Assembly (NCBI RefSeq): GCF_003431325.1
Contig: NZ_CP010515.1
Location: 1,364,001-1,428,000, forward strand
Direction: 5' to 3'
DNA: 64,000 nt
Source of the DNA: Acidilobus sp. 7A
Lineage (GTDB): Archaea > Thermoproteota > Thermoprotei_A > Sulfolobales > Acidilobaceae
The notes beneath the pieces are model-generated. The model was not told where the DNA came from. It made no database searches and saw only the letters and a list, made by a program, of their open reading frames with translations. Position numbers and translations under genes: made by a program. Positions 5,370 to 53,874 of the stretch are shown piece after piece (positions within the stretch are counted from its first letter, which is position 1; every line of letters begins with the position of its first letter).

Positions 5370-5612
5370 GCCTTCCGCAGCTATTTTGATTTTCACATGG
5401 GTCTTTAAGGTTCATTATACATGCTCGTCGGCGAGGTCCCCTTGAGGGGTGAAGAGCCGCTAGGCTCTCCCCGAGGCTACTCAGGGCGTGGGGTCCCAGG
5501 TAACCCTGAGCGCCCCCAGGCCCTATGGGACCCCGAGCGGGGCGCGGGAAATAAGGATGAGACTCCGACTGTAAAACAATGAACCCATGTAGGAGCTGAA
5601 CCCTCTGCAAAG
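5370..5612 (+). repeat. GC-rich ~240 bp element, copy A (candidate structured RNA)
   Basis: Matches the reverse complement of 29266-29498 at roughly 85-90% by eye, apart from a 10-base insertion in this copy near 5521-5531. Both copies share a TATA-like TCTTTAA (5403-5408 here) about 25 bases before the GC-rich core. Hairpins visible: GGGG(TGA)AGAGCC / GGCTCTCCCC around 5445-5472, and CTCAGGG / CCCTGAG at 5480-5510. In this copy only, GGGGTCCCA (5490-5498) also pairs perfectly with TGGGACCCC (5526-5534). No good protein-coding explanation. It lies upstream of the YjbQ gene on the same strand, so a leader RNA is possible here, but copy B has no such downstream gene. Confidence 0.75.
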
Positions 5613-5659
5613 TCGGTGATTTTATAACTCGGCCTAGTAGTGAGCAGCTGGGGGTCTTC

Positions 5660-6070
5660 TTGAAGTTCCTTCATGAACGCTTTGAAGTCAGGACTAAGGA
5701 GAGATTTGAAGTTATTGACGTGACCGACAAAGTAAAGGAGTTTATATACAACAATAGCGTTACCAATGGGCTGCTCTCAATATCAGTGCCGCACACGACA
5801 GCCGCTATAGCCATTAACGAGGCTGAAAGAGGTCTTATGGAGGATATCGTGACTTCCATAAGGAGCCTCTTCAACCCCGAGCGGGCCTGGAAGCACAATC
5901 TTGTCGATAACAACGCGCACGCTCACCTTGCAGCAACTTTTATAGGTAACTCAAGGTGCGTAAGCGTTGTGAACGGGACCATACAGCTAGGCCGCTGGCA
6001 GAGGGTGCTCCTTATAGAGATGGACGGTCCTAGGAGTAGGCTCATTGAACTAACCTTTGTAGGGGAATAG
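5660..6070 (+). CDS. YjbQ / UPF0047 family protein
   Basis: Small conserved protein of 136 residues. The pattern ISVPHTTAAIAINE...(E)..MEDI, followed by DNNAHAHLAATFIG and a C-terminal LGRWQRVLLIEMDGPR, is the classic YjbQ/UPF0047 signature with its clustered histidines. Some members have weak thiamine phosphate synthase activity; the physiological role is not settled. The TTG start at 5660 sits behind a G-rich run at 5650-5655 and gives the normal length. It stands alone, downstream of repeat copy A on the same strand, so transcription may begin within or after that element. Confidence 0.85.
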   Translation: MKFLHERFEVRTKERFEVIDVTDKVKEFIYNNSVTNGLLSISVPHTTAAIAINEAERGLMEDIVTSIRSLFNPERAWKHNLVDNNAHAHLAATFIGNSRCVSVVNGTIQLGRWQRVLLIEMDGPRSRLIELTFVGE

Positions 6071-24727: not shown

Positions 24728-25897
24728 TTGACGAAGAAGATCCTCATAGCTGGTGGAGGTATAGGAGGCTACGTTGCAGCGAAGAGACTGGTAGACGGCA
24801 TTAGGAGTAGCGGCGTTGACGCCGAGGTAACAGTTATCAACAAAGAACCCTATCACTTCATGCCGCCGCTCTTCTTTGATGTGGCCCTGGGCTATGCCTC
24901 AGCTGACGAGACCAGGGCCCCTATACAGAACATGGAGAAGTACGGCATAAAGGTGACACTAGACGAGATACAGTCCATAGATGCTGCGAACAGGACCGTT
25001 GTCGGCGCCAAGGGCAAGTACCAGTATGACTACCTTCTGGTCTCCCTCGGTATAGACTACGGCTGGGGCGCGTACCCAAATCTTGACAAGGAGGGCGTCC
25101 ACAACTTTGACCTTGACGGTGCGCTGAAGATGAAGGAGGCCCTCAACCAGGTTAAGGACGGGCAGAACGTAACTTTGCTGATACCTGAGCTGCCCTACAG
25201 GTGCGGCATATACCCATACGAGGCGGCAACCGCGCTCTCGTCCTTCTTCAGGGCCAGGAACAAGAAGGTTAGCATAAGGCTCCTAGACCCAATGCCCGCC
25301 CCAATAATCCCCCTGGGCTCAGCCATATCAAGGTTCATAGCGGATCAGCTCGCATACTACGGCGTTGAATACGTGCCCAACTTTAAGCTGAGGGAGATAG
25401 ACCCATCAAAGAAGACCGTCGTAGGGTCCAGCGGCGAGTTCAAGTACGACCTCCTGGTCAAGGTGCCGCCGTCAAGGTTGCCTAAGGCCCTTGCAAACAG
25501 CGGCGAGGACTTCACGTGGAAGCAGGACCCGAGATGGGCCCCTGTGCTGCCTAACGGCAGGCACCCTAAGTACGATGACGTCTACCTCGCAGCTGAGCAC
25601 TCATTGCCACCGCTCGGCATAGGTCTTGCCGGCGTCTTCGTTGAGTCCCTGGCCATAACTGCCGCTACTAACATGCTAGCTGATCTGGTCGGCGGCTTTG
25701 GGCCAGCGTTTGTGCCAAGCCCTGTCTCCTGCGTTGGTTACGCCGGCGACAAGGGCTGGGCTGGCACGTGCGAACTGCCGTTTGACGCGAGCAAAGGCAT
25801 GTACGCAATGAAGTGCTACTTCGGCGGCGTTTACTCCATAGGGAGGCTGCTGAAGCAGGGGTTCTACCGTGGCTGGATTGACGGTCTTAAGTTCTGA
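24728..25897 (+). CDS. FAD-dependent sulfide:quinone oxidoreductase-like protein (module 1)
   Basis: 389-residue flavoprotein of the SQR / type II NADH dehydrogenase superfamily. N-terminal dinucleotide fold ILIAGGGIGGYVAAKRL; a conserved Cys in PYRCGIYPYEAA (about 160) at the position of an SQR redox cysteine; further cysteines at PSPVSCVGY (about 337), WAGTCELP and MKCYFGG. The second FAD-binding segment is PKYDDVYLAAEHSLP. Probably membrane-surface oxidation of sulfide or polysulfide with electron transfer to quinone; loss of a usual cysteine would change this. TTG start with GGTGA exactly six bases upstream. Followed 13 bases later by a DUF1641 gene. Confidence 0.7.
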   Translation: MTKKILIAGGGIGGYVAAKRLVDGIRSSGVDAEVTVINKEPYHFMPPLFFDVALGYASADETRAPIQNMEKYGIKVTLDEIQSIDAANRTVVGAKGKYQYDYLLVSLGIDYGWGAYPNLDKEGVHNFDLDGALKMKEALNQVKDGQNVTLLIPELPYRCGIYPYEAATALSSFFRARNKKVSIRLLDPMPAPIIPLGSAISRFIADQLAYYGVEYVPNFKLREIDPSKKTVVGSSGEFKYDLLVKVPPSRLPKALANSGEDFTWKQDPRWAPVLPNGRHPKYDDVYLAAEHSLPPLGIGLAGVFVESLAITAATNMLADLVGGFGPAFVPSPVSCVGYAGDKGWAGTCELPFDASKGMYAMKCYFGGVYSIGRLLKQGFYRGWIDGLKF

Positions 25898-25910
25898 GGG
25901 GGTGGCATGA

Positions 25911-26366
25911 ATGGCTGAGGCAAAGAAAGAGGTAGCAGAGGGTGTCTCCCCAGAGGTTCAGGCCCAGGCGCTGGCGGAGCTCCTGGACGCTGTAGTTAAC
26001 CTTAAGAGGAGCGGCATCCTCGGCATGCTGTCTTACCTCGCGGACAAGGCAGAGGAGTCCTTCCTCGCGGCGGCCACGGACCCAGCGCTTATGAGGCTCC
26101 TGGCCCTGCTTTCCTCAGTCACGTACGGCATCATGAACGTTGACACAAGCGACCTTTCAAACGCCCAGAACAACTTGACGGACCTGACTTCATGTGCAAT
26201 GGAGTCCCTAGGCAAGCTTGATCTAAGCAAGCCTAAGAGCGTCGGCCTGCTAGGCCTTATGAGGTCCCTCAGTGACCCTGACGTCTCACAGGGCCTTGGC
26301 ATACTCTTAGATATAATGAAGCAGCTAGGAGCCTGCGCCAGGAGCAAGGGTGCGTCAAAGGCTTAG
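25911..26366 (+). CDS. DUF1641 protein (module 1)
   Basis: 151-residue helical protein. The pattern DPALMRLLALLSSVTYGI...SVGLLGLMRSLSDPDVSQGLGILLDIMKQLGA is the DUF1641 signature, a short family often encoded beside formate dehydrogenase or SQR-like flavoproteins; no biochemical role is known. ATG at 25911. Two cysteines (SCAMES, GACARSK) are not in a metal motif. It follows module 1's flavoprotein by 13 bases and clearly belongs to the same transcript; a paralogue lies in opposite orientation just downstream. Confidence 0.8.
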   Translation: MAEAKKEVAEGVSPEVQAQALAELLDAVVNLKRSGILGMLSYLADKAEESFLAAATDPALMRLLALLSSVTYGIMNVDTSDLSNAQNNLTDLTSCAMESLGKLDLSKPKSVGLLGLMRSLSDPDVSQGLGILLDIMKQLGACARSKGASKA

Positions 26367-28816: not shown

Positions 28817-29263
28817 GTGAACGAGGTTTTGAAGACTCTGCCGCCGGTGACCTTAGACCAGGTATTGGGGCTCGTCAGATACGTGGCGGCCTACGGTGGG
28901 GTTGTGGACTCCTCGAGGCTGGATGATCTACTAGATATAAACATGGACCTCCTGCCCCACGTTGTTGATGCTGCTGTGAGCCTACGGCTCCTCAGGACAG
29001 AGGGCGGGAATCTCATCATAACGCCTGAGGGCAGGAAGGCCATAGAGCTGAGCGGGAGGGACCTTAGGGCGTTAATAAAGTCCCTAAGCGATGACGTAAG
29101 ACCTTTTAAGGATATCTTCGAGGCTATAGGTGATTCTGACGCAATTAGCGGGCAACTGTTAAGGAACATACTCAGGCGGGCAGGCTACGTAAACATCGAA
29201 GATGCAGTTATGATCTTCACCGAGTGGCTGGCCTACATGGGGATAACGGTCCTTGAGGAGTAA
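28817..29263 (+). CDS. AAA-associated domain protein (PF09821-like)
   Basis: 148 residues resembling the C-terminal domain found after nitrate/taurate-type ABC ATPases (AAA_assoc_C), here alone: LDQVLGLVRYVAAYGGVVDSSRLDDLL, then ITPEGRKAIELSGRDLRALI, and a C-terminal ILRRAGYVNIEDAVMIFTEWLAYMGI. Mostly helical, winged-helix-like at the start. No P-loop is present, so it is not an ATPase. GTG at 28817. The gene precedes repeat copy B and tRNA-Lys and has no ABC transporter nearby. Role unknown; a ligand- or metal-responsive regulator is a guess. Confidence 0.6.
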   Translation: MNEVLKTLPPVTLDQVLGLVRYVAAYGGVVDSSRLDDLLDINMDLLPHVVDAAVSLRLLRTEGGNLIITPEGRKAIELSGRDLRALIKSLSDDVRPFKDIFEAIGDSDAISGQLLRNILRRAGYVNIEDAVMIFTEWLAYMGITVLEE

Positions 29264-29265
29264 GG

Positions 29266-29498
29266 CTTTGAGTAGGGGTTCAGCTCCTACATGAGTTCAC
29301 TGTTTTACGGTCAGAGCCTCATCCTTATTCCCTCGCACCCCGCTCGGGCCTGGGGCGCTCAGGGTTACCTGGGGCCCCACGCCCTGAGTAGCCTCGGGGA
29401 GAGCCTGGCGGCTCTTCACCCCTCAAGGGGACCCCGCCGATGAGCATGTATAATGAACATTAAAGACCTATGTGAAGCGCGAAGCAGCTGCGGAAGGC
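29266..29498 (-). repeat. GC-rich ~235 bp element, copy B (inverted relative to copy A)
   Basis: Reverse complement of this interval aligns with 5370-5612 from the shared GCCTTCCGCAGCT through the shared GTAGGAGCTGAACCC tail. It retains the TATA-like TCTTTAA, the GGGG(TGA)AGAGCC hairpin with loop GCCA in place of GCTA, and the CTCAGGG/CCCTGAG stem, but lacks the 10-base insertion of copy A. It begins just after the PF09821-like gene's stop, pointing toward that gene, with no minus-strand gene close enough to be served as a leader. That favours an independent RNA or a mobile element over an mRNA leader. Confidence 0.75.
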
Positions 29499-52672: not shown

Positions 52673-53874
52673 CTACCCCGTCCTAACGGGCGGGGCATCC
52701 CCACCTCGCGGTGAGGACTTCCTGCTTCTTCCAGGAAACTTACTATACACCCCCTCTGAGAAGGGGATGTATAGCAGAGATCTCCTGTCTACAGGCTCTA
52801 AGGGCAGCCCCGACCCCGCACGGAGAACATTTAGAGAAGCGTTATAGTCACGGTCAGCGACCCAACCGCACCTGGGGCAGACAAACACGCGGTCAGCCAA
52901 CGTCAGATCCTTCTTAACGTACCCGCACCTAGCACATGTTCTTGAGGTATTCCTCGGGTCTACCTTCGCCACCCTCCTGCCAGCTCTACTAGCCTTGTAG
53001 GAGAGGTGGCTCATGAACTTGAAGAAGTCAGCATGAAGAATGTGCTTTCTCAAAGCTTTACTTTCACTGTCCTCAACCATCTCCTTGACGTCAAGGTCTT
53101 CCACGTATATCTCATCATACTGCTCTACGAGCCACGAAGTTACCTTGTGAATATAGTCATTCATGAGATTCTTCACGCGCTCGTGCATCTTGGCTAACTT
53201 CTTTCTGGCCTTCTCATAGTTTCTAGACCCTTTTCTCTTTCTAGATAACGTTCTTTGCAAAGTCCTTACCCTCCTCTCGACCTTATCAAAGACCTTGGGG
53301 TTCTCTACCACTACACCATCAGAGGTAGTTACGAGATTCTCCACTCCTAGGTCTATTCCAACCACTTTTCCAGTTTTCTCGAGAGGTTTCCTTTCGGCCT
53401 CAACCTGGAAGATAGCATACCATCCAGTTGCGCTCCTCTTTATTATTACCCCTTTTACCTCGTCTTCTAACGGTCTGTGGAAGAGCACTTTCACCTCCCT
53501 ATCTTTGAGAGGATCAGCTTGTCTTCATCAATCTTGAAACCAGACTGGTTGTAGTTTATGATCTTCACGATCTTCTTGTACCTCAGTTTCCCCACCTTCT
53601 TTCCTCTCTTCTTCAATTCATGAAGAGCATTGATGTTGTACCATAACTGGTTGTTCACCATTTGAAGGGCTTTGGAGTAAACTAGTTCTTTTCCCTCTAT
53701 TTTCAGGTCTTTCAACATGTCTTGGGTGTCCTTAGGTGTTATCTTTTTCCCTTCTTTCCTTGCGTTATTCACCGCGTCTAACAAAGCATTGTATGCTTTA
53801 GCTTCAACCTGCATGACCCTGAGTAGTTTTTCCTCTACTTCCCTAGTTGGGTAAATCCTGTACTTGAATGACAG
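52673..53874 (-). pseudogene. tnpB: IS200/IS605-type tnpB (TnpB nuclease), frameshifted
   Basis: RNA-guided nuclease of IS605 elements, about 400 residues if repaired. The N-terminal frame (SFKYRIYPTREVEEKLLRV...KLILSKIGR) ends at a TGA (53491-53493), and the C-terminal frame starts again at 53494 (KVLFHRPLEDEVKGVIIKR). Restoring one G in the run at 53495-53499 joins them as ...KIGEVKVLF, as in relatives. The RuvC-like site is intact: GIDLGVENL (Asp), YVEDLDVKEM (Glu), CARCGY...CPRCGW zinc finger and DRDYNASLN (Asp). No standard start exists before ATG 53814, so the 5' end near 53874 is a guess. No tnpA is present. Recent decay. Confidence 0.85.

Follow-up and report, generated by a model that had tools for sequence, protein, structure and literature searches.

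Within a 64,000-nucleotide stretch of the Acidilobus sp. 7A genome (hereafter the window), two GC-rich elements lie in opposite orientations, and a preliminary description suggested that they could represent either a MITE or a small RNA gene that transposition had duplicated. What are these elements, from what do they derive, and how might they move? End-to-end alignment showed that copies A and B are 86% identical across 234 bp (BLAST E 4e-76), in line with the 85–90% estimated by eye. As had been described, homology ends outside the two copies; the edges are sharp (left ...GCC, right ...GAACCC(C/T)) and, defined from 54 left ends and 79 right ends, give exact extents of 5370–5604 (+) for copy A and 29275–29498 (−) for copy B. 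Copy A is a complete short element lacking tnpB, and copy B is a complete short element of the same type (A-type) with an internal deletion of 11–12 bases. We conclude, with a probability of about 0.88, that both are non-autonomous copies of a TnpB transposon with IS607-type ends, that they carry an omega-RNA scaffold and that they would be moved in trans by TnpA. Both earlier suggestions hold on this reading, the copies being MITE-like tnpB-less derivatives with an omega-RNA scaffold as their core.

The preliminary description had seen only a pair and had proposed a search for further copies. Searched piecewise, the genome (1.539 Mb, one contig) contains 21 short copies of 205–245 bp with the same two edges, as well as a copy with tnpB (L014), another in which tnpB is truncated (L017) and a few ends that stand alone. 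Although the sequence on its left at first looked unrelated, the real left end of L014 lies 1.4 kb off, and L014 is a 1.46-kb element with tnpB between the same two ends as the short copies; its left end (LE) and right end (RE) are 91–95% identical to those of many of them. The 448-aa TnpB of this element scores above the cut-offs for Cas12f1-like TNB and TIGR01766, and is similar to solved TnpB and Cas12f structures and chains. Almost every short copy aligns to the first 35–60 and the last 95–165 bases of L014, the A-type copies (A, B and L003–L007) additionally retain 15–30 bases of the tnpB 5′ region, and the short-copy cores preserve a residual TnpB reading frame. The alignments show that the short copies are the tnpB element minus its middle: left end, a tnpB 5′ scrap in the A/B type, and tnpB 3′ end with right end. 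Internal deletions took out tnpB and left both ends. The copies form a MITE-like family, being short, numerous, devoid of a transposase gene and bounded by the ends of a known transposon. Elsewhere in the window, a fragment at 52919–53428 (−) with 28% similarity to TnpB represents another TnpB-type gene.

The left end of copy A (GCCTTCCGCAGCTATTTTGATTTTCACATGGGTCTTTAAGG, 5370–5410, +) carries a promoter-like TTTAAG and matches the LE of the tnpB-bearing element as well as that of IS607 elements. The TATA-like TCTTTAA noticed earlier is indeed common to A and B, and lies at 5402–5408. The tnpB 5′ scrap of copy A (TGAGGGGTGAAGAGCC, 5443–5458, +) agrees with the intact element at 15 of 16 bases; such scraps are typical of A-type copies, with the sister copies keeping a longer piece. 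Positions 5477–5604 (+) are the right end with its omega-RNA scaffold, a segment that goes back to the RE together with the tnpB 3′ end. In copy B, the LE lies at 29458–29498 (−) and the right end with its scaffold at 29275–29391 (−). The ten bases previously read as an insertion in copy A represent the ancestral state, which most copies keep and which was deleted in B and L007. The 9-bp pairing attributed to copy A (GGGGTCCCA with TGGGACCCC) is present there but is private to that copy, with no family-wide conservation. Similarly, the hairpins GGGG-TGA-AGAGCC/GGCTCT-CCCC and CTCAGGG/CCCTGAG occur in A-type copies but are confined to this subset; the former falls within the tnpB 5′ scrap, and the family-wide helices are other ones. 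Nor was the supposed strength of the core hairpins borne out: in this genome the GC-rich cores of the short copies, ~130 bases long, do not exceed dinucleotide-shuffled sequences in stability (mean z about −0.65), so hairpin strength mostly reflects GC content.

Since the thermodynamic z-scores are near zero, the case for an RNA structure rests on covariation, which had also been proposed as a check and which revealed compensatory stem changes across 101 copies. Three helices are common to these copies, which come from several families: P1 (AUGUG with a 3′ AUAU-type strand), P2 (GGGNN/NNCCC) and P3 (CCCCY/RGGGG). Over P1–P3, 88% of the cells pair, and two-sided (compensatory) changes were found in 61 cells, against 28 (SD 4) in shuffles and 3–28 in slid controls; the alignment behind these counts was fitted with a model from this genome in which most P1 and P3 strands take part in helices in some way, and in tnpB-bearing copies the region is partly coding and hence independently constrained. 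P2 is not among the helices of the alignment model, and has at least four solutions (GGGUC/GGCCC, GGGUG/CACCC, GGGCU/AGCCC and GGGGU/ACCCC), several of them in short copies. The preliminary description had seen no resemblance of the core to tRNA, RNase P RNA, SRP RNA or C/D guides; an Rfam search of the scaffold returned nothing above the gathering threshold, and the matches obtained at lax thresholds were unrelated hits of the microRNA/snoRNA type. These copies supply a new structured RNA family that is absent from Rfam.

In OMEGA systems, TnpB omega RNAs lie over the end of tnpB and extend up to the element edge. The ~130-base right end of our elements has the same arrangement: in intact elements it is in the sense orientation relative to tnpB, overlaps the tnpB end and stops at the transposon edge, with a structured scaffold and with flanking host DNA as the would-be guide. 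It differs from known omega (re)RNAs in that the short copies have no adjacent nuclease gene and the scaffold has no Rfam match. We infer that the short-copy core is the omega-RNA scaffold of a TnpB transposon; by prediction it would bind TnpB and be transcribed from the LE promoter. The RAGATH-18-derived reRNA, likewise a guide RNA of IS607-type TnpB, is separate from the tnpB coding region in its bacterial systems (PMC11061315), unlike the scaffold described here, which overlaps the coding end and matches no Rfam family. Host DNA beside the right end would supply the guide. By position, the would-be guides are 5605–5624 (+) for copy A and 29255–29274 (−) for copy B, provided that transcription runs past the scaffold end. 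An extended stem formed by host DNA pairing from flank to flank was considered, and did not exceed permuted pairings (p 0.17).

Is there a TnpB for such guides? The sole cognate TnpB of this genome (L014:1449–2795, −) retains acidic residues (D, E and D) at its three RuvC-type positions, as judged by eye, and its tnpB frame continues past the element edge into the flank. It is 17 residues short, the missing stretch corresponding to a region that in relatives takes in the zinc finger's second half, and for this reason the local TnpB may be inactive or crippled. Homologous elements of 1.4–1.5 kb with the order LE-tnpB-RE, the same ends and a full zinc finger occur in Ignisphaera and Desulfurococcaceae genomes. 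With a covariance model, and at most 15 candidates scored per genome, we found the RNA in 36 of the 214 genomes of the order; in a phylum sample of 349 genomes, 8 of the more distant ones also have it, two of them with weak matches. The gene content and the relatives agree with the Acidilobales. Full and short forms occur together in four genomes (G107, G127, G141 and G145), with a short length typical of each genome, while two others (G008 and G075) have many short copies (14 or more) and a cognate TnpB that is either absent or reduced to a fragment. Across genomes the short forms differ in length and internal junctions, and the complete ones retain the scaffold. The family is a clean natural case in which guide-RNA scaffolds exceed their nuclease in number and, in some genomes, have persisted beyond it.

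By default, we take each short copy for a non-autonomous transposon in which an omega-RNA scaffold simply coincides with the right end. The short copies could instead be kept as standalone guide-RNA genes, whose omega RNAs, each with its own guide, are used in trans by TnpB. Every complete short copy retains both the scaffold and the promoter-bearing LE, and P1–P3 pairs in short copies are kept at 0.89 in genomes with a cognate TnpB versus 0.77 in those without (Mann-Whitney p 1.4e-4), a contrast that is a hint only, confounded as it is by kinship among the copies and by an alignment model for which this genome served as training set. However, the right end, which overlaps the scaffold, is needed for transposition itself, and copies are numerous in G008 and G075 with no cognate TnpB or only a fragment of it; the local TnpB, as noted, may be crippled too. 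Furthermore, an exact 18-base search of viral contigs gave one match each for the guides of A and B, about the chance expectation, and the contigs matched do not look archaeal. Altogether, we consider a role as standalone guide-RNA genes unlikely. Its most far-reaching form, in which some 20 dispersed trans-acting guide-RNA genes with different guides share one TnpB and make up a CRISPR-like repertoire built by transposition and not by spacer acquisition, appears very improbable. The two functions are open to direct test, orphan omega RNAs used by TnpB in trans versus a scaffold kept as a transposase-required DNA end.

The ends of the short copies bear on how a non-autonomous TnpB transposon would move. 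The genome also has a canonical IS607 element (about 693150–695110, −), which encodes a 208-aa TnpA and TnpB and whose left end equals the short-copy LE with one mismatch; IS607 elements in three further genomes (G127, G141 and G046) match with 0–1 mismatches. These 0–1 mismatches over 26–28 bases in the four genomes compare with a minimum of 7–8 mismatches in shuffled controls, and in all four the LE lies ~230 bp ahead of the resolvase domain of the IS607 TnpA genes. Most other serine-transposase genes are without this LE, including the second IS607-type TnpA of the genome (189400), which we considered and rejected after finding no such LE in its upstream region. At the right end, the match to IS607 is weak, limited to AACCCC at the very terminus plus an inverted motif of loose similarity. 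Because this match is short, it is chiefly the left end that argues for cross-mobilisation.

The termini of the short copies are of the CC/GG type, with GCC on the left (C in 50/54 and 48/54) and CCCC on the right (73–77 of 79), and the ends contain imperfect subterminal inverted repeats. No shared direct repeat indicative of a target-site duplication was seen when the flanks of 22 copies were compared by inspection. IS607 makes no target duplication, has GG at its termini and target, and carries imperfect subterminal inverted repeats (PMC6188088). Thus, the ends of the short copies fit the IS607 (serine transposase) type, to which they would belong. The copies resemble the IS607 family (TnpA + TnpB; IS607, IS1535, ISC1926) in these features and in an LE nearly identical to that of the same-genome IS607 element, and differ from it in having neither tnpA nor an intact tnpB. 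It is likely, judging mainly from the shared left end, that the serine transposase TnpA of the related IS607 element mobilises the short copies in trans. In this predicted cut-and-paste mechanism, strands would be exchanged at a CC/GG dinucleotide and no target duplication would arise; the exact exchange dinucleotide is approximate, as the intergenic empty sites defy base-by-base alignment.

Could the copies instead be classical MITEs or PATEs, with a DDE transposase or a Y1 (IS200/IS605) TnpA as their mobiliser? Small size and imperfect terminal inverted repeats would suit such elements, and archaeal precedent exists in the Haloquadratum PATEs, especially HqIRS71, which are transposase-free and arose from TnpB transposons by core deletion (PMC3119063). 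The short copies are likewise transposase-free core-deletion derivatives of a TnpB transposon. However, PATEs are tied to IS200/IS605-type palindromes and the ends seen here are IS607-like, the LE being common to serine-transposase elements. A transposase search directed at the Y1 type (PF01797) found none in the genome, and we found no conserved 4–5 base target left of the LE. Nor do the copies have the target-site duplications that the preliminary description had named as support for a MITE, and IS607-type transposition likewise makes none. On these grounds, a classical MITE or PATE is a highly doubtful explanation.

In each of the three congeners compared (G001, G002 and G003), neither A nor B is present at the orthologous site. 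G003 and G001 keep the genes around both copies, for the most part in the same order. Copies A and B would thus be insertions that occurred since the congeners split, losses being much less likely. An independent small-RNA gene family unrelated to transposons and duplicated by chance recombination could account for the conserved promoter-like box and the covarying stems, but as a stand-alone account it is refuted by the ends shared with the tnpB element; the ends shared with IS607, the empty sites and the TnpB reading frame left in the cores also speak against it, and we give it almost no credence.

The neighbourhood also shows local rearrangement. Beside copy A, a YjbQ-like gene (5660–6070) is inverted relative to the convergent arrangement in the three congeners, with copy A at the inversion breakpoint; over the 35 kb around it, gene order is nearly that of G003. 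Further along, a two-gene segment (24728–26363) is inverted versus both G003 and G001.

Finally, the full elements contain a 47-codon ORF between LE and tnpB, divergent to tnpB (L014:2767–2910, +); both short copies of the window lack it. It aligns without gaps at 47–83% identity in 14 elements from several Thermoproteota families, carriers besides L014 being L093, L096, L102, L144, L170, L195 and others. The product matches no Pfam or NCBIfam family; its predicted structure has three beta strands (pLDDT 78, pTM 0.49), and a fold search against the PDB gave no match with E below 1. We regard the conserved 47-aa protein as a candidate for a new accessory protein carried by TnpB transposons. The same ORF recurs at a second left end, L062 (G000:C1:~665850–667450, −), where 365 bp are 96% identical to L014; this left end passes directly into a different TnpB gene, the arrangement of a chimeric or nested element.
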